Positions 8,885 through 17,270 of a stretch of DNA of 42,325 nucleotides are shown here, one piece after another. The stretch lies in assembly GCA_030950365.1 (NCBI GenBank), contig JAUZRQ010000028.1, positions 1-42,325 on the forward strand, given 5' to 3'. Below the pieces are notes generated by a model, which was not told the DNA's origin, searched no databases, and saw nothing but the letters and a program-made list of their open reading frames with translations. Every line of letters starts with the position of its first letter. The stretch's first letter is position 1. The DNA comes from Candidatus Zhuqueibacterota bacterium. Lineage in GTDB: Bacteria; Zhuqueibacterota; Zhuqueibacteria; Zhuqueibacterales; Geothermadaptataceae. Both the position numbers and the translations under genes were made by a program.

Positions 8885-9283
8885 ATGAAACAGCTCACTC
8901 AGGCATCCTGCATCCGGCAGGAAGTGGATATCGAAAAGCTGCGGCGATTGAGAACCAGGCTGTTGCAGCGGACGGAACTGGATCATCTGGCCGATTTGCT
9001 GGCCATGGCTGGCAATGCCACACGGCTGAAAATTTTGTATTTGCTGACAGAGAGCCGCGAGCTGTGTGTGTGCGATCTCGCCGATGTCATGGGCATGACC
9101 GTTTCTGCGGTGTCTCATCAGTTGCGCAAGTTGCGTGACCGCAAAGTGATCGTGCAGCGCCGTGAAGGCCCGACGATCTATTACCGGCTGGCTCCGGGGC
9201 CGCTGACGGAAGTGCTCAACTTGCTGTTCCAGAGCGAAGCTCCACGCAAAAAAACAACCGCAATCAAAGAGGTTATGGAATGA
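8885..9283 (+). CDS. ArsR/SmtB-family metal-responsive repressor of the mer operon
   Basis: 132 residues from ATG 8885; a longer frame to 8819 would run through the operator and is rejected. The winged-helix core shows NATRLKILYLL, the ELCVCDLADVM metal-site helix (C61, C63), and the recognition helix SAVSHQLRKLRDRKVI with wing QRREGPTIYYRL. Cys9 may complete the site, as the N-terminal Cys does in CadC. Proteins of this family repress in the apo form and release DNA on metal binding. Its ATGA overlap with merT and the palindrome at its promoter indicate an autoregulated mercury sensor, as in ArsR-type MerR of actinobacterial mer operons, rather than a classical MerR. Confidence 0.93.
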   Translation: MKQLTQASCIRQEVDIEKLRRLRTRLLQRTELDHLADLLAMAGNATRLKILYLLTESRELCVCDLADVMGMTVSAVSHQLRKLRDRKVIVQRREGPTIYYRLAPGPLTEVLNLLFQSEAPRKKTTAIKEVME

Positions 9284-9618
9284 AGAACGCCATCTGGAAT
9301 CTGGGATCGGTCGCTGCCGCCTTTTTTGCATCGGCTTGCTGCATTCTGCCTCTGGTCTTCGCATCGCTGGGGGTGGGCAGCATGGCGTTTGCCACGGCAC
9401 TGGAACCGTACCGCCCTTACTTCATTGGCATCACCGTGGTGTTTCTGGGTTTCGGATTTTATTACACCTATCGGCCGCAGAATCAGGATTGCGAACCTGG
9501 CGAGGACTGCGCCGTGCCATCCCGGTTGCGCTTGCAACGAGCGGCGCTCTGGATCGTAACCGCGCTGACGGCCATCCTGATCGCGTTTCCGTACCTGGTG
9601 CCGTATTTGTTTGATTAA
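9280..9618 (+). CDS. merT: Mercuric ion transporter MerT
   Basis: 112 residues overlapping the repressor gene by four bases (ATGA), so translation is coupled. Three predicted helices are visible. Helix 1 holds the Cys pair SACCILP (C20, C21) that takes Hg(II) from MerP, and the cytoplasmic loop has a second pair, C71 and C77, with the six-residue spacing of MerT C76/C82. The stretch YRPYFIGITVVFLGFGFYYTYR is characteristic. It carries Hg(II) across the inner membrane to MerA. Length and topology are normal. Confidence 0.95.
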   Translation: MKNAIWNLGSVAAAFFASACCILPLVFASLGVGSMAFATALEPYRPYFIGITVVFLGFGFYYTYRPQNQDCEPGEDCAVPSRLRLQRAALWIVTALTAILIAFPYLVPYLFD

Positions 9619-9715
9619 TCTTAGCATGCTGGAACCCTGCTTCTGCAACCGTCGGAAGCGGGCATGACAAAAAACGGATGGTTAAACAGGCATCAATACA
9701 AAAGGAGGCAGAACC

Positions 9716-10069
9716 ATGAAAAACAAATGGTTACTCGGACTCAGTGTAGTCGCTCTCTCCGCGACATTTTTGACCTTCGGAATCAATGGCTGCAGCGAGA
9801 AGAAGACCGATGCGCCGAAAGCGCAGGCCAAAGCCACGGCTGGCCCCACCAAAGTGGTGGCGCTGGAAGTCGATGGCATGACCTGCAACAGTTGCGAGGT
9901 GGCCTTGAAGACGACGCTCAAGAAACTCGATGGCGTCAAGGCGGTTGAAGCGAGCTATAAAGAAAACCGGGCTGTGGTGACTGTGAACCCGGAAAAAGTC
10001 GCTGATGAGCAAATCGTCGCGGCCATTAGCAAGCTGGGATATACGGCCAAAATCAAATCAGACAACTGA
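9716..10069 (+). CDS. merP: Periplasmic mercury-binding protein MerP
   Basis: 117 residues with a good AAAGGAGG site before ATG 9716. A signal sequence is followed by Cys26 in the context INGC, so it may be a lipoprotein, although the lipobox is not canonical. An Ala/Lys linker leads to one HMA ferredoxin-like domain with GMTCNSC (C57, C60), which binds Hg(II) and hands it to MerT. The 97-bp gap after merT is slightly long but the strand and context fit one operon. Classical MerP is shorter (about 91 residues); the extra length is the linker. Confidence 0.93.
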   Translation: MKNKWLLGLSVVALSATFLTFGINGCSEKKTDAPKAQAKATAGPTKVVALEVDGMTCNSCEVALKTTLKKLDGVKAVEASYKENRAVVTVNPEKVADEQIVAAISKLGYTAKIKSDN

Positions 10070-10110: not shown

Positions 10111-10374
10111 ATGAAATGGTTCAAATCAAAAAAAGATCAGGCAGGCAGCGAGGCCGGCGTCATTGAGCTTGAGATCACAGGCATGTCGTGCGATGGATGC
10201 GCGAACCATGTGCGCCAGGCGCTTTCGGCCGTGGAAGGCGTGACCGAAGTGGATGTGCCCTCCTGGAAAGAGGGCCGGGCCATGGTGCGCACCTCCGCGC
10301 CAGTCGGAGATGCGGTTTTAGTGGCTGCAGTGGAACAGGCTGGATATCAGGCGCGGATCAAAAAAAAAGCCTGA
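10111..10374 (+). CDS. HMA domain (NmerA-like), frame-separated N-terminal part of MerA
   Basis: 87 residues, one heavy-metal-associated domain with GMSCDGC (C27, C30) and no signal peptide, hence cytoplasmic. In most proteobacterial MerA proteins this NmerA domain is fused to the reductase. Here it ends IKKKA-stop at 10374, directly at a run of nine A (10360-10368), and the reductase continues in the -1 frame without any gap. It can be read either as a separate small Hg chaperone or as the first half of a frameshifted merA. Spacing from merP is 41 bp, with AACAGGAG upstream. Confidence 0.85.
   Translation: MKWFKSKKDQAGSEAGVIELEITGMSCDGCANHVRQALSAVEGVTEVDVPSWKEGRAMVRTSAPVGDAVLVAAVEQAGYQARIKKKA
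10360..10368 (+). other. A9 homopolymer: candidate slippage site joining HMA domain to MerA
   Basis: In the HMA frame the run reads AAA AAA AAA GCC TGA. A -1 ribosomal shift, or one extra A made by transcriptional slippage, gives AAA AAA AAA AGC CTG and continues straight into the reductase. The motif A-AAA-AAA is a known slippery type. A sequencing or assembly error in the homopolymer would look the same. Confidence 0.6.
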
Positions 10375-11819
10375 ATCCCACTGATTTTCCGGCCTCCCGA
10401 AACGGCAGCGAATTCGACCTGATCGTGATCGGCACCGGCGGGGGCGGAACGGCGGCGGCCATTCGAGCGGCTGAGCTGGGCTACCGGGTGGCCATCATTG
10501 AAGCCGGCACCATTGGCGGCACCTGCGTCAACATCGGCTGTATTCCATCCAAAGCCATTATCCGGGCGGCCAAAGCCTACCACACCGCCGGGCACCATCC
10601 GTTCGCCGGCCTGCGTACCCGTGCCGAGGGGGTGGACTGGCCGCAACTCATTTCTCAAAAAGATCATCTCGTGGCGGAACTGCGCCAGCAAAAATACATC
10701 GACATTCTGCAATCCTACGATACCATCACCCTGATTCAGGGCCATGGCCGCTTCAATAGCCGCGGCGAAGTGGTCATCGACCAAAACCGCGTGCTGCGCG
10801 GCGACCGGGTGATCATCGCCACGGGGGCGCAGCCCAAAATACTGCCCATCGATGGCATCGACCAGGTGCGGGTGCTGAACAGCACCACACTAATGGCGCT
10901 GGAACGCCAGCCGGAATCGCTGCTGGTGATCGGAGGTCGGGCGATTGCCCTGGAGCTGGGGCAAGCCATGGCCCGACTGGGAACCCGCGTGACCATCCTG
11001 CAGCGCAGCTCCCGCCTCCTGCCCGAGCACGACCCTGAAATCAGTCGCGGCATTCAAGAAGCTTTGGAAAACGAGGGAATCGAGGTGGTGACCGGTGCGG
11101 TGCCGGAAAAGATCTGCGAAATCGACGGCCAAAAAGAAGTGACCGCGCGCGTGAATGGCAGCTCCCGCAAGTTTCACGCCGAAGGCGTACTGATGGCGGT
11201 AGGCCGCGTTCCCAATACCGACAATCTTGGCCTTGAGGAAATCGGTGTTACCACCGACGCCAACGGGTTCATTCTGGTCGATGCGTTTCTGCGCACCAAC
11301 CGCTCCGGCGTGTTTGCCGTTGGTGACGTCACCCGGCTGCCCAAGCTGGTGTATGTGGCCGCCGCCGCGGGCACGCTGGCAGCCGAAAATGCGTTAACGC
11401 AGGCACAACGCCAACTGGATCTGAATGTACTGCCGGAAGTCATCTTCACCGATCCGCAAATTGCGACCGTAGGCATGACCGAGCAACAGGCTCGGGAAGC
11501 CGGCCACTCCGTTAAAGTGGCGCATTTGCCGCTGGAGCATGTGCCGCGCGCGCTCACCGAGCAGGATCGCCGCGGGTTCATCCGGCTCATTGCCGATGCT
11601 GACCACAACACGTTGTTGGGCGCCCATATTCTGGCTGCGGAAGCCGGAGAGATCATCCAGACTGCAGCGCTGGCCATGGAGTTCGGCCGCCGCCATGGCT
11701 ACACGGTGGATGAATTGCGCAGCATGCTGTTTCCCTATTTGACCCAAGTCGAAGGCATCAAATTGGCGGCGCAGACATTTGACAAGGATGTGGCGAAGCT
11801 GTCCTGCTGCGCGGGATAG
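10371..11819 (+). CDS. merA: Mercuric reductase MerA, flavoprotein disulfide reductase part
   Basis: The frame encodes EFDLIVIGTGGGGTAAAIRAAE (FAD-binding GxGxxG), the redox-active GGTCVNIGCIPSK, a central NADPH-binding region (VIGGRAIALELGQAMARLG), a second FAD motif (VFAVGDVTRLP), the C-terminal dimer interface and the terminal Cys pair LSCCAG that passes Hg(II) to the active site. It reduces Hg(II) to Hg(0) with NADPH. There is no ATG near the correct N-terminus. Upstream in this frame only CTG (10371) overlaps the HMA stop as CTGA, and an upstream ATG at 10188 would translate the HMA region out of frame. Production is therefore likely by frameshift from 10111 or by rare-codon coupled initiation. 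Confidence 0.93.
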   Translation: MNPTDFPASRNGSEFDLIVIGTGGGGTAAAIRAAELGYRVAIIEAGTIGGTCVNIGCIPSKAIIRAAKAYHTAGHHPFAGLRTRAEGVDWPQLISQKDHLVAELRQQKYIDILQSYDTITLIQGHGRFNSRGEVVIDQNRVLRGDRVIIATGAQPKILPIDGIDQVRVLNSTTLMALERQPESLLVIGGRAIALELGQAMARLGTRVTILQRSSRLLPEHDPEISRGIQEALENEGIEVVTGAVPEKICEIDGQKEVTARVNGSSRKFHAEGVLMAVGRVPNTDNLGLEEIGVTTDANGFILVDAFLRTNRSGVFAVGDVTRLPKLVYVAAAAGTLAAENALTQAQRQLDLNVLPEVIFTDPQIATVGMTEQQAREAGHSVKVAHLPLEHVPRALTEQDRRGFIRLIADADHNTLLGAHILAAEAGEIIQTAALAMEFGRRHGYTVDELRSMLFPYLTQVEGIKLAAQTFDKDVAKLSCCAG

Positions 11820-11969: not shown

Positions 11970-12275
11970 TTATGGCAGCTCGATCTTTGGTTTCTCCGCA
12001 TGCCGGCGGAAGAGCAGAATGGTGCGGCCGAGCACCTGCACCAGGTGCGAGCGTGTGGCCCGTGCCAGTTGCTCGGCTACCGCTTGCCGGTCCTCGAGCA
12101 CGCTTTGCTGCAATTTGATCTTCACGAGCTCGTGCGCATTGAACGCCATTTCAATGGCCTCAATCACTGCATCGGTCACCCCCTGCTGTCCTACAAACAC
12201 AATCGGTTTGAGCGAGTTTCCCAGCCCACGCAAAAACCGGCGCTGCTTTCCGGTCAAGGTATCACCTGCCATCAT
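11970..12275 (-). CDS. yhbY: YhbY-family RNA-binding protein (CRM domain)
   Basis: 101 residues, normal for the family, with AAAGGA just before the tandem ATG-ATG start at 12275. The CRM fold is recognisable: LTGKQRRFLRGLGNSLKPIVFVGQ and, further on, IEMAFNAHELVKIKL. YhbY binds pre-50S ribosomal particles and assists ribosome assembly. It is convergent with merA and apparently monocistronic. Confidence 0.93.
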   Translation of the reverse strand: MMAGDTLTGKQRRFLRGLGNSLKPIVFVGQQGVTDAVIEAIEMAFNAHELVKIKLQQSVLEDRQAVAEQLARATRSHLVQVLGRTILLFRRHAEKPKIELP

Positions 12276-12944: not shown

Positions 12945-15938
12945 ATGAAAACGTTCAAAGCTCTTTTCTCCTGTATCGCGCTTTTTGGCGTTCTGCTGCT
13001 TACGTCACAGGCGCAGGCGCAGAGCGTCACCATCCGGGGGAAGGTTATCACCGCGGATACTGGCGAGCCTCTGCCCGGAGCCAATATTGTGGTGCTGGGC
13101 ACTTCGACCGGTACCGCCACGGATGTCAACGGCGAGTTCCGCCTGACACTCACCGACGTTTCCGATGCCACACTGGTGGTGAGCTTCATTGGTTACAAGA
13201 CTCAGCAGATCAAGGTCGATCCATCCATGGTCGGCGAGGTGATCACCATTACGATGGAAGAGGATGTGCTGCGGCTGAACGAGATCGTGGTGACCGGTCT
13301 GGCCACATCGGTGGCGCGCCGCAATCTGGCCAATGCGGTGGAAACGGTCAAATCCGATGAGCTGCTGCAGGCTTCCACGCAAACGCTGGAACGCGCGCTG
13401 GGTGGCAAATTCCCCGGTGTGTTCGTGAGTCAGAACACCGGGGCCCCGGGCGGCGGCATCAGTGTGAATCTGCGCGGCACCACCACCATCGAAGGGGCGA
13501 CTCAGCCTCTGTATGTAATTGATGGCGTGATTATGAACAACGCGGCCAATCAATCCGGTATCGACCTGGTGACCAAGGCCACTGGCGCCGGTAGCTCACG
13601 CCCGCAGGGCCAGCCCACCAACCGGATCGCCGATTTGAACCCCAACGACATTGAATCCATCGAGGTGCTAAAGGGCGCCAGCGCGGCGGCCATTTACGGC
13701 GCCAAGGCCACCAACGGCGTGATCATCATCACCACCAAACGCGGAGGGCTCGGGAAAACCCGAATTGAGATCAACCAGCAAGTCGGCTTCAATAGTCTGC
13801 TCAAAAAAATCGGCTCGCGCCGCTTCACTCTGGAAACTGCGACCAAGCAGTATGGTGATCTCGGCGCCCAGGAATTCCAGAAAAGCGGCGGTAAGTTCAT
13901 CGATTATGAAGATGTGATGTATGGCGAAAAGGGCATTCTTTCCGAGACCAGCATCAGCCTGCAGGGCGGCAACAACCGCACCCAGTTTTACGTGTCCGGC
14001 ATGTTTCGCAATGAGGACGGCATCATCAAGCGCACCGGCTACAACAAATACAGCGGCCGGGTGAACCTGTCGCACAAATTCTCCGAACGGCTGGACATTC
14101 AGGCCAACATCAACTTTGTGCGCAGTAGCTCCGATCGCGGGATCACGGGTAACGACAATAGCAACACCACCTTCGGCTTTTCGCTGGGCTTCACGCCGAG
14201 CTTCTTCGATATCCGCCCGAAAAATGGCGTGTACCCGGATCATCTGTTCAACCCGTCCAATCCCATTCACACGCGCGACGTGCTGGTCAACAACGAGCTG
14301 GTGAACCGCACCATTGCCGCCACGCAAATCAACTGGCATCTGTATAAAACGCACAATCAGTCATTGGATTTCATCATCAATGGCGGTGTAGATTTTTATA
14401 ACCAGGAAAACAAAGTGGTGTCGCCGCCGGAATTGCAGTCCGAGCGCAACGCAGACTTGCCCGGAGCTTCGCTTCTGGCTACCACGCGCAACGTCAACTG
14501 GAACCTGTACCTGAACCTGGCGCACCGCTATCAGACCGGCAACAACATCAGTTTCAGCACCACGGCTGGCGTGCAGTTCGAGGACCTCGACAAAAATTAT
14601 CTGCTCACCGAAGCGCGTGGCCTGATTGTCACGCAGACCAACGTGGACCAGGCGGCTACCATTAATGCTTTTCAGGATCGTTTCCTGCGCCGGGAACGGG
14701 GTTTCTATGTGCAGGAAGAAATCAACCTGCAGGACCGCATTTATCTGGCGTTCGGCATCCGCGGCGATGCCAGCAGTGCCAATGGCGATCCGAACAAAAT
14801 CTTCCTCTTTCCGAAGGCTTCGGCCTCCATCCGTCTTTCTGAGTACAAGTTCTGGGACAGTTTCCGTTCGTTGTCGGATGAATTTAAGCTGCGCGTGGCC
14901 TACGGCGAAACCGGTAACCTGCCGGTGCTGGATGCAAAATACACCTCGCTCACGCCGAACAACGCCGGCGGCAAGGCTGGTTTATTGCCCGCCACACGCC
15001 GCGGGGCCGCCGATATCCGGCCCGAGCGCACCAAAGAGCTGGAAATGGGCTTCGATGCCGCGCTGTTCAACGAGCGCGCCTCGCTGTCGTTCACCTTTTT
15101 CAATCAAAACATCAGCGATCTGTTCCTGATCGCCGACCTTCCGCCCTCGTCCGGCTTCGTGGAAGAGGTGATCAACGGCGGCAAAATGCGCACGCGCGGC
15201 GTGGAAATTTCGCTGGGGCTCATCCCGCTGAACAGCCCCAACCTGACTTGGCATTCTCGGATCAATTTTTACAAAACGTCGTCGGTCATCACTCAGCTCG
15301 ATGTAGATCCGTTCAACAAGGGCGGTTTCGCCACGTTTCTCGGTACCTTCCGCATTCAGGAAGGCTGGTCGCCCACGACCGTAATCGGCGCGGAGATGGA
15401 AACCCTGCCCGACGGCACCAGGCAACATAAAAAATTGGGCGATGCCACGCCCGACTTCGTGATGTCGTTCAACAACGTGTTCGAATTCGGCCATTTCGAT
15501 CTCCGGTTCCTGTGGGAATGGAAGAATGGCGGCGCGGTGATCAATCTCGGTAAGCTCATCACCGATCTGGGCGGCACCACGGCGGATTATGATGAAACCA
15601 TTGTCGTCGATGGCAAAGAAATGAAAAAAGGCGATTGGCGTTTAAGCGTTCTGGGTACGCAGACCGCCCCTTACGTGGAAGACGGCAGCTACTGGAAATT
15701 GCGTGAGCTCAGTTTGACGTACAATGTGCCGCGTCAGCTTTACGCCAGCCTCTTCGGCGAGGCGCTGACTCATCTGACGCTGAGCATCGGCGGCCGCAAC
15801 CTGCTGCTGTTCACATCCTACACCGGCTACGATCCGGAAGTGAGCCAGTTTGGCAACGTGGCCATCGGCCGTTACGTGGATACGCTGCCGTATCCATCCT
15901 CACGCAGCTTTTATTTCAATATTTCGCTGGGTCTGTAA
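12945..15938 (+). CDS. SusC/RagA-family TonB-dependent outer-membrane transporter
   Basis: 997 residues with a signal peptide ending SQAQAQS. A carboxypeptidase-D-like domain (about 27-105, GKVITADTGEPLPGANIVV) precedes a TonB-box-like LNEIVVTG, the plug domain (residues 120-250, with LYVIDGVIM and the SusC signature IESIEVLKGASAAAIYGAKATNGVIIITTKRG-type region) and a 22-strand barrel ending in an aromatic terminal strand (FYFNISLGL). With the SusD protein 21 bp downstream it forms a lidded importer for glycans, peptides or other large nutrients. No enzyme or sigma/anti-sigma gene is next to it, so the substrate is not indicated. Confidence 0.96.
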   Translation: MKTFKALFSCIALFGVLLLTSQAQAQSVTIRGKVITADTGEPLPGANIVVLGTSTGTATDVNGEFRLTLTDVSDATLVVSFIGYKTQQIKVDPSMVGEVITITMEEDVLRLNEIVVTGLATSVARRNLANAVETVKSDELLQASTQTLERALGGKFPGVFVSQNTGAPGGGISVNLRGTTTIEGATQPLYVIDGVIMNNAANQSGIDLVTKATGAGSSRPQGQPTNRIADLNPNDIESIEVLKGASAAAIYGAKATNGVIIITTKRGGLGKTRIEINQQVGFNSLLKKIGSRRFTLETATKQYGDLGAQEFQKSGGKFIDYEDVMYGEKGILSETSISLQGGNNRTQFYVSGMFRNEDGIIKRTGYNKYSGRVNLSHKFSERLDIQANINFVRSSSDRGITGNDNSNTTFGFSLGFTPSFFDIRPKNGVYPDHLFNPSNPIHTRDVLVNNELVNRTIAATQINWHLYKTHNQSLDFIINGGVDFYNQENKVVSPPELQSERNADLPGASLLATTRNVNWNLYLNLAHRYQTGNNISFSTTAGVQFEDLDKNYLLTEARGLIVTQTNVDQAATINAFQDRFLRRERGFYVQEEINLQDRIYLAFGIRGDASSANGDPNKIFLFPKASASIRLSEYKFWDSFRSLSDEFKLRVAYGETGNLPVLDAKYTSLTPNNAGGKAGLLPATRRGAADIRPERTKELEMGFDAALFNERASLSFTFFNQNISDLFLIADLPPSSGFVEEVINGGKMRTRGVEISLGLIPLNSPNLTWHSRINFYKTSSVITQLDVDPFNKGGFATFLGTFRIQEGWSPTTVIGAEMETLPDGTRQHKKLGDATPDFVMSFNNVFEFGHFDLRFLWEWKNGGAVINLGKLITDLGGTTADYDETIVVDGKEMKKGDWRLSVLGTQTAPYVEDGSYWKLRELSLTYNVPRQLYASLFGEALTHLTLSIGGRNLLLFTSYTGYDPEVSQFGNVAIGRYVDTLPYPSSRSFYFNISLGL

Positions 15939-15959
15939 CCTAACGTGAAAGAGGAAATC

Positions 15960-17270
15960 ATGATGAAAATGAATCGACTGCCCAAATGTCTCCATTGCCC
16001 CTTGTTTGGCCTGCTGTTGTTTGGCGGGTTGCTGTTTTCGATGGGATGCGAGACGCTCGATATTCCGAATCCCAATGCCCCCACGGTGGAGCAGGTGACC
16101 GTGCAGAGTCTGGTTACCGGCGTCGAGGCCGGTATGCGGCTGGAAATCGGCATTTACCTGCGTGTGGTGGGCATTCTTGGCCGGGAAGTGTACTATTTCG
16201 AACCGGCGGATCCACGCTACACCGGCGAGCTGCTGTTTGGCACGGTGGATCCGGGTGGCTTTCTGCTCAACCGGCCCTGGTCGGCGCGTTACCGCACCAT
16301 TGCCACTTGCAATTTCATTCTGGATAAGGCCAACGATCTGGAACCCCAGGCGGCCGCCGGCGCCCGCGGCTTTGCCAAAACCATCATGGCATATCAACTA
16401 TTGCTCAACCTGAATTATCTGGATGAAAACGGCATCCGGCTGAATTTTGACGGCGATTTGTCCAAACCGTTTGCCAGCAAGCAGGAAGCTTTCGCCCGAA
16501 TCGAATCCCTGCTGGATGAAGGATTGGCCGATCTTAACAACGCCGGCGCTGACTTTGCCTTCACCCTGACCGAAGGCTTCAGCAAATGGAACCTGCACAC
16601 ACCGGCCGGTTTCGCCAAATTCAACCGGGCCATCCGGGCGCGCGTGGCTGTGTATCAGGGCAAATACAACGAGGCCCTGCAGGCCCTCAACGCCTCGTTC
16701 CTGGATCGCAACGGACCGATGGAAATGGGCGCCTATTACGTGTTCGGCACCGGTCTCGGGGATCAGCCCAATCCGATTTTCGAAAACCCCGACGCCCCGT
16801 TTGTCAAACTGATGGCGCATCCCACGTTTGAAACCGATGCCGAGGCCGGTGATCAGCGTTTCGCCACCAAGGTGAAAAAGCGCCCCGAGCCAACCACGTT
16901 CGACAATTTGACTTCGCAACTGGGCGTCACCATCTCCAAAAGTTCCACCGATCCATTCCCGATCATTCGCAACGAAGAACTGATTCTGCTGGCGGCCGAA
17001 GCCAATATCGGGCTTGGCAATCTGGCCGAGGCGCAAAATGACATCAACCTGGTGCGCGCCGCCGCCGGACTGAGCCCGGTGACCCTGACCGCCGACAATG
17101 CAGTGACGCAGCTCCTCCACGAAAAACGCTACTCGCTGTTTGGCGAAGGCCATCGCTGGATCGATATGCGGCGCTACGGCCGGCTTGATGAACTGCCGGT
17201 GGATCGAGCCACCGATAAAGTCATCGATCGGCTACCGATTCCGGAGACCGAACGAAGTGAAGGCAAATGA
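15960..17270 (+). CDS. SusD/RagB-family outer-membrane lipoprotein
   Basis: 436 residues from ATG 15960, preferred over GTG 15945 because AGAGGA lies between them at proper spacing. A signal peptide ends in a lipobox-like FSMGC, so it is anchored in the outer membrane. TPR-like helical content and the C-terminal family signature EKRYSLFGEGHRWIDMRRYG are clear. It serves as the surface lid and ligand-capturing partner of the SusC barrel directly upstream. At 436 residues it is on the short side for SusD. Both genes end at the strong terminator at 17294. Confidence 0.94.
   Translation: MMKMNRLPKCLHCPLFGLLLFGGLLFSMGCETLDIPNPNAPTVEQVTVQSLVTGVEAGMRLEIGIYLRVVGILGREVYYFEPADPRYTGELLFGTVDPGGFLLNRPWSARYRTIATCNFILDKANDLEPQAAAGARGFAKTIMAYQLLLNLNYLDENGIRLNFDGDLSKPFASKQEAFARIESLLDEGLADLNNAGADFAFTLTEGFSKWNLHTPAGFAKFNRAIRARVAVYQGKYNEALQALNASFLDRNGPMEMGAYYVFGTGLGDQPNPIFENPDAPFVKLMAHPTFETDAEAGDQRFATKVKKRPEPTTFDNLTSQLGVTISKSSTDPFPIIRNEELILLAAEANIGLGNLAEAQNDINLVRAAAGLSPVTLTADNAVTQLLHEKRYSLFGEGHRWIDMRRYGRLDELPVDRATDKVIDRLPIPETERSEGK

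Follow-up and report, generated by a model that had tools for sequence, protein, structure and literature searches.

The window analysed, a 42,325-nt stretch representing contig C58 of a 4.98-Mb draft genome from the candidate phylum KSB1, contains a mercuric reductase gene (merA) whose HMA domain and catalytic core lie in different reading frames on either side of a run of nine A residues (A9). It is probable that merA acts as one gene, from which slippage at the A9, by either agent considered below, would give both a small mercury-binding protein and the full enzyme, because a related species preserves the same split. Slippage, its agent and rate, and the role of the free domain are what we infer. 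The nearest named relative of the host found by search was a MAG designated 'candidate division KSB1 bacterium'.

Organization of the split merA locus

The mer cluster is compact and consists, in order, of genes for an ArsR-type regulator, MerT, a MerP-like HMA protein and MerA (Table 1). The start of the regulator was placed at the ATG at 8885 by alignment with the corresponding locus of a second species (L039). An ArsR-family regulator leads the part of the cluster that precedes merA (8885-10069), and the N terminus of the MerP-like protein (TFGINGC) is of the lipoprotein type. Convergent with merA, a small minus-strand ORF (11970-12275) shows by eye a likeness to the YhbY/CRM RNA-binding family, and adjoining ORFs at 12945-17270 resemble, again by eye, a SusC/RagA-type TonB-dependent receptor and a SusD-like lipoprotein.

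The ORF that begins at the ATG at 10111 encodes a single HMA domain with the metal site GMSCDGC and the C terminus QARIKKKA*, and its 3′ end reads ATC-AAA-AAA-AAA-GCC-TGA. Within the run, a slippery heptamer of the X-XXY-YYZ type (A-AAA-AAA; 10362-10368) is read in the 0 frame. The −1 frame passes through AGC at 10368 and then CTG AAT CCC to the TAG at 11819 (SLNPTDFPASRNGSEFDLIVIGTG...SCCAG*), and encodes a complete MerA core from the leucine at 10371 onwards, including all of the MerA signature cysteines (the redox pair in GTCVNIGC and the C-terminal vicinal pair in LSCCAG). An HMA domain with its CxxC motif is therefore present, but in a different frame from the core rather than in a single NmerA-MerA ORF, and the break, at a coding-region run that reaches the nine A or T residues of Thermus-type slippage genes, coincides exactly with the domain boundary. 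No ATG, GTG or TTG could serve as a start for the core and leave the FAD-binding strand whole: the sole in-frame start upstream, GTG 10188, lies within the HMA-coding sequence, where it would yield a nonsense product, and the first GTG downstream falls within the FAD-binding beta strand (LIVIGTG). The original prediction, that the HMA domain ends in the A9 and the reductase resumes in the −1 frame lacking a usable start, was borne out exactly.

Table 1. Features of the mer cluster and of the merA frame junction, in window coordinates.
Feature	Position	Strand	Basis
ArsR/SmtB-family regulator, in place of a MerR-family one	8885..9283	+	NF033788, 85.9 bits over cut-off; PF01022
merT, mercuric transport protein	9280..9618	+	PF02411, 83.9 bits
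MerP-like HMA protein	9716..10069	+	PF00403, 4e-15; lipoprotein-like N terminus TFGINGC, lipobox by eye
0-frame ORF, 87-aa HMA domain (NmerA-type), predicted free mercury chaperone	10111..10374	+	PF00403, 1.5e-11
Inverted repeat GGAU.UCAGGC ... GCCUGA.AUCC, A9 at 3′ end of loop	10342..10378	+	hairpin in each species, z −2.0 and −1.5
A9, candidate slippage site (T9 on template strand)	10360..10368	+	sequence; same 22-nt context in L039
−1 frame, linker and MerA catalytic core	10368..11819	+	TIGR02053, 550.1 bits against cut-off of 454.45
CTG overlapping the stop (CTGA), only plausible alternative core start	10371..10373	+	kept in L039
0-frame TGA stop, one codon past the A run	10372..10374	+	frame reading

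Conservation of the split and A-run sites in the lineage

Only one other species of the genus (G001) was included in the genome set, so that the comparison within the genus is one of two species. Its locus (L039, also L010; WFVT01000080.1, MAG S140_5) has the gene order and the merA split seen in the window. The core is 81% identical between the window and this KSB1 MAG, and the 22 nt of the junction, CGGATC-A9-GCCTGAA (CGGATCAAAAAAAAAGCCTGAA), are identical, so that the arrangement in the window is not due to chance. Synonymous divergence is near saturation and the dS values of ∼1.40 for the HMA part and ∼1.35 for the core are therefore approximate; the corresponding dN/dS values of 0.08 and 0.10 indicate purifying selection on both halves. 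AAA is the favoured lysine codon, 21 of the 23 AAA codons of the window's merA and merP that align to a lysine in L039 being AAA there as well, and the three AAA codons kept at the junction are therefore not significant alone. Conservation of the A9 was accordingly set aside as proof in itself, this strong codon preference being able to explain the identity of the run. The argument lies in the shared frame break together with the selection on both halves, run identity alone being weak.

In one member of the same family (G004; L040/L011) the HMA domain and the core are fused in one frame, in another (G003; L041/L012) the HMA tail and the core share one open frame as far as the contig edge, and the other members of the phylum that have an HMA domain are also fused in frame. 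Among the loci surveyed, an HMA domain in another frame just upstream of the core was found only in the window and the genus mate. Because relatives outside the genus are fused, the split is, on this sequence comparison, derived within the genus; the conservation check that had been proposed thus finds it identical in the genus-mate species and absent from the sister genera. The merA site had no exact match in IMG/VR.

Long A runs with comparable properties can be detected elsewhere in the lineage. In dnaX of the window genome, the genus mate and two sister genera (L154, L155, L156, L157), an in-frame A10 is located just past the clamp-loader domain and both other frames stop within 8 codons. 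Across the KSB1 class, the first A or T run of at least 7 past this domain is A9-A11 in 17 of the 30 dnaX genes read (including L215-L241). Such in-frame runs, with the other frames closing early, are common in dnaX of KSB1 genomes and suggest Thermus-type tau/gamma production across the class. A pattern search for runs of at least nine A residues identified 45 in the window genome and 13 in G001. Seven runs share their position in the two, namely those in merA, dnaX and a TPR-repeat gene, and four that are apparently non-coding or at gene edges. The TPR-repeat gene is split at an A10, with a change to the −1 frame, in the window genome and the genus mate alike (L184:1492-1501, equivalent to G000:C112:52373-52382, and L185:1492-1501) and is intact in four sister species, where a single frame encodes 455-458 aa; the DNA following the A10 is unusually conserved, being 94-98% identical, and has a stable downstream fold in both species.

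Ordinary in-frame A9 runs served as a small control of three genes. In a LOG-type gene the run is A7 in the G001 counterpart, which is 93% identical, a second run has been lost in G001, and for the third gene no counterpart was found in G001; within this small control, ordinary runs are not kept between the two species. Two further frame-switch candidates were rejected: an A9 in G001 (L202) joins two adjacent ORFs overlapping at the run, which we take to be DUF1670-like, rather than interrupting a split gene, and at the transition flagged in L146 a single frame continues uninterrupted across the run, the overlap there being a matter of chance. An element of ∼166 nt that begins with an A9 (L147:1501 and, on the minus strand, L198, 1501) is 93% identical between the two species but lies in different surroundings; it is non-coding, has no match in Rfam and is possibly a dispersed repeat. 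We tentatively entertain the broader idea, at somewhat less than even likelihood, that A9-A10 polymerase slippage is a general device of this KSB1 genus (dnaX, merA and the TPR gene) and sets the ratio of free chaperone to reductase in merA.

Proposed expression and alternative explanations

The computed products depend on the length of the run in the transcript. In both species, A9 and A12 transcripts encode the HMA domain alone (87-88 aa), A8 and A11 transcripts append a few other residues to it (PESH or PEIHR; 90-92 aa), the stop in this third frame coming after PESH, and A7, A10 and A13 transcripts encode the complete HMA-MerA (568-571 aa). All run lengths that do not yield MerA lead, in the window and in the genus mate, to a stop only a few codons past the run, and the outputs would therefore be free HMA or full-length HMA-MerA only. 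Unslipped A9 (or A12) transcripts would supply the free HMA protein and those lengthened by a single A (A10; likewise A13 or A7) the fused enzyme, and the expected outcome would be full mercuric reductase accompanied by a surplus of a free NmerA-like chaperone that may draw Hg(II) off cellular thiols and pass it to MerA. NmerA reportedly removes Hg(II) from proteins and hands it on to the core (Ledwidge et al. 2005), and because of this a surplus of free NmerA would be a sensible product. MerA cores without NmerA are common, so that the fusion is not strictly required. The original prediction, that slippage gives free HMA and full MerA, is favoured by the second species, the selection on both halves, the stops in both non-MerA frames and the A run in dnaX of the lineage; against it, only two species carry the split and the CTG is conserved as well.

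RNA polymerase slipping on T9 would be the likeliest agent, and it is slightly favoured as the main one at merA. Nine A's suffice for efficient slippage by bacterial RNA polymerase in published cases (PMC5009743), and the Thermus-like form of dnaX in the lineage also speaks for the polymerase. Ribosomal −1 slippage on A-AAA-AAA, a sub-case with the same two products, could contribute further, although as the source of the fusion it seems unlikely. The heptamer is perfect in the 0 frame and followed immediately by a stop, a layout described as 'reversed dnaX' (PMC5009743), and 20 nt beyond the TPR A10 site both species of the genus have a stable structure. At merA, however, no conserved downstream stimulator was detected, the folds having z values of +0.16 and −0.28 and differing between the two species, which weakens the ribosomal version; no clear Shine-Dalgarno stimulator is seen upstream by eye, and an A9 alone is enough for the polymerase. 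Both tRNA-Lys isoacceptors are present in the genome, as in Thermus, which also counts against the ribosome, although that argument concerns AAG codons. The UCAGGC/GCCUGA hairpin formed by the inverted repeat around the A9, possibly due to chance, was rejected as a stimulator and is given no role because it includes bases that would already be inside RNA polymerase or the ribosome during slippage.

The frame break could instead be a mutation tolerated since slippage rescues it, with no benefit from free HMA. Such 'saviour' slippage occurs in insect endosymbionts. This reading overlaps mechanistically with the two-product explanation, from which it is distinct in purpose. Neutral fixation of such mutations would be possible where runs are prone to slippage, as in this lineage, and no need for a short product is obvious for the TPR gene; but the merA split persists over a dS of ∼1.4 with dN/dS low and both other frames stopping at once, and the cut falls exactly at a domain boundary, so that this reading deserves some weight while being on the whole unlikely. 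It is distinctly improbable that two separate proteins are made, the HMA ORF stopping at the TGA and the core restarting by coupled initiation at the overlapping CTG. The CTGA overlap noted in the original prediction is indeed present and is kept in both species, and the hairpin over the CTG could tie initiation to upstream translation. CTG is, however, a rare start codon, and its Shine-Dalgarno pairing of −3.3 kcal/mol, the same in both species, compares with −6.9 for the merA ATG, −6.5 for merT and −11.8 for merP. It thus amounts to no Shine-Dalgarno site for the core, which makes a CTG start weaker than slippage, and restarting would leave the retention of the A9 and the parallel A-run cases unexplained.

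A sequencing or assembly error concealing a fused gene with ten A's, the outcome that was to overturn the original prediction, has become highly improbable. Homopolymers are error-prone and both genomes are draft assemblies, but assemblies of two distinct species agree on exactly A9 with the same outcome, the A10 runs of dnaX in the family were assembled in frame, and among the 45 runs of at least nine A's in the window genome a convincing frame switch occurs only in merA and the TPR gene. Error as the main reading was rejected on the identical split in the second species; error and decay are both strongly argued against because two assemblies show the A9 and both halves are under purifying selection.

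Relationship to known recoding systems

No earlier report of recoding in a mercuric reductase was found in the open-access library searched or in PMC3711429. If the two-product reading is true, copper and mercury resistance have separately reached the release of an HMA chaperone from a detoxification enzyme by a frame change, and an uncultured phylum offers a testable set of slippage genes; it would also serve as a warning that annotation pipelines label such genes broken or drop the merA start.

The arrangement resembles canonical NmerA-MerA (TIGR02053; NF010311) in having an HMA domain followed by the core with all signature cysteines, but differs in that the two parts occupy two frames, whereas relatives outside the genus are fused or lack the HMA domain. 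As in insertion sequences and cellular genes with 9A/9T slippage (PMC1088944), the full product of a disrupted ORF would be restored at the mRNA level; in contrast to those cases, merA is a cellular metal-resistance gene in which a functional domain would be freed when slippage does not occur. In Thermus thermophilus dnaX, a run of nine A's leads RNA polymerase to make transcripts that vary in length, and stops lie close by in the other frames (PMC1088944; PMC5009743). The merA site shares the nine A's and the early stops in the frames lacking the long product, and dnaX of the KSB1 lineage itself has the Thermus layout, but the long product of Thermus dnaX is encoded without slippage and that of merA requires it. 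The analogy with dnaX tau/gamma drawn in the original prediction accordingly holds in its logic and not in its polarity, since the short product is zero-frame here, the reverse of dnaX in E. coli and Thermus.

The nearest functional parallel is E. coli copA, the 5′ part of which encodes an HMA domain whose free product is called CopA(Z). Programmed −1 frameshifting in that gene produces a putative copper chaperone of 70 aa from its 5′ part (PMC5009743). Both are metal-resistance genes in which a −1 change just past the HMA domain would separate a short chaperone from the full enzyme, although in merA it is the short product that is read in the 0 frame and the full enzyme that depends on the shift, the slippage site would be an A9 lacking a clear stimulator, and the metal and enzyme are mercury and a flavin reductase.
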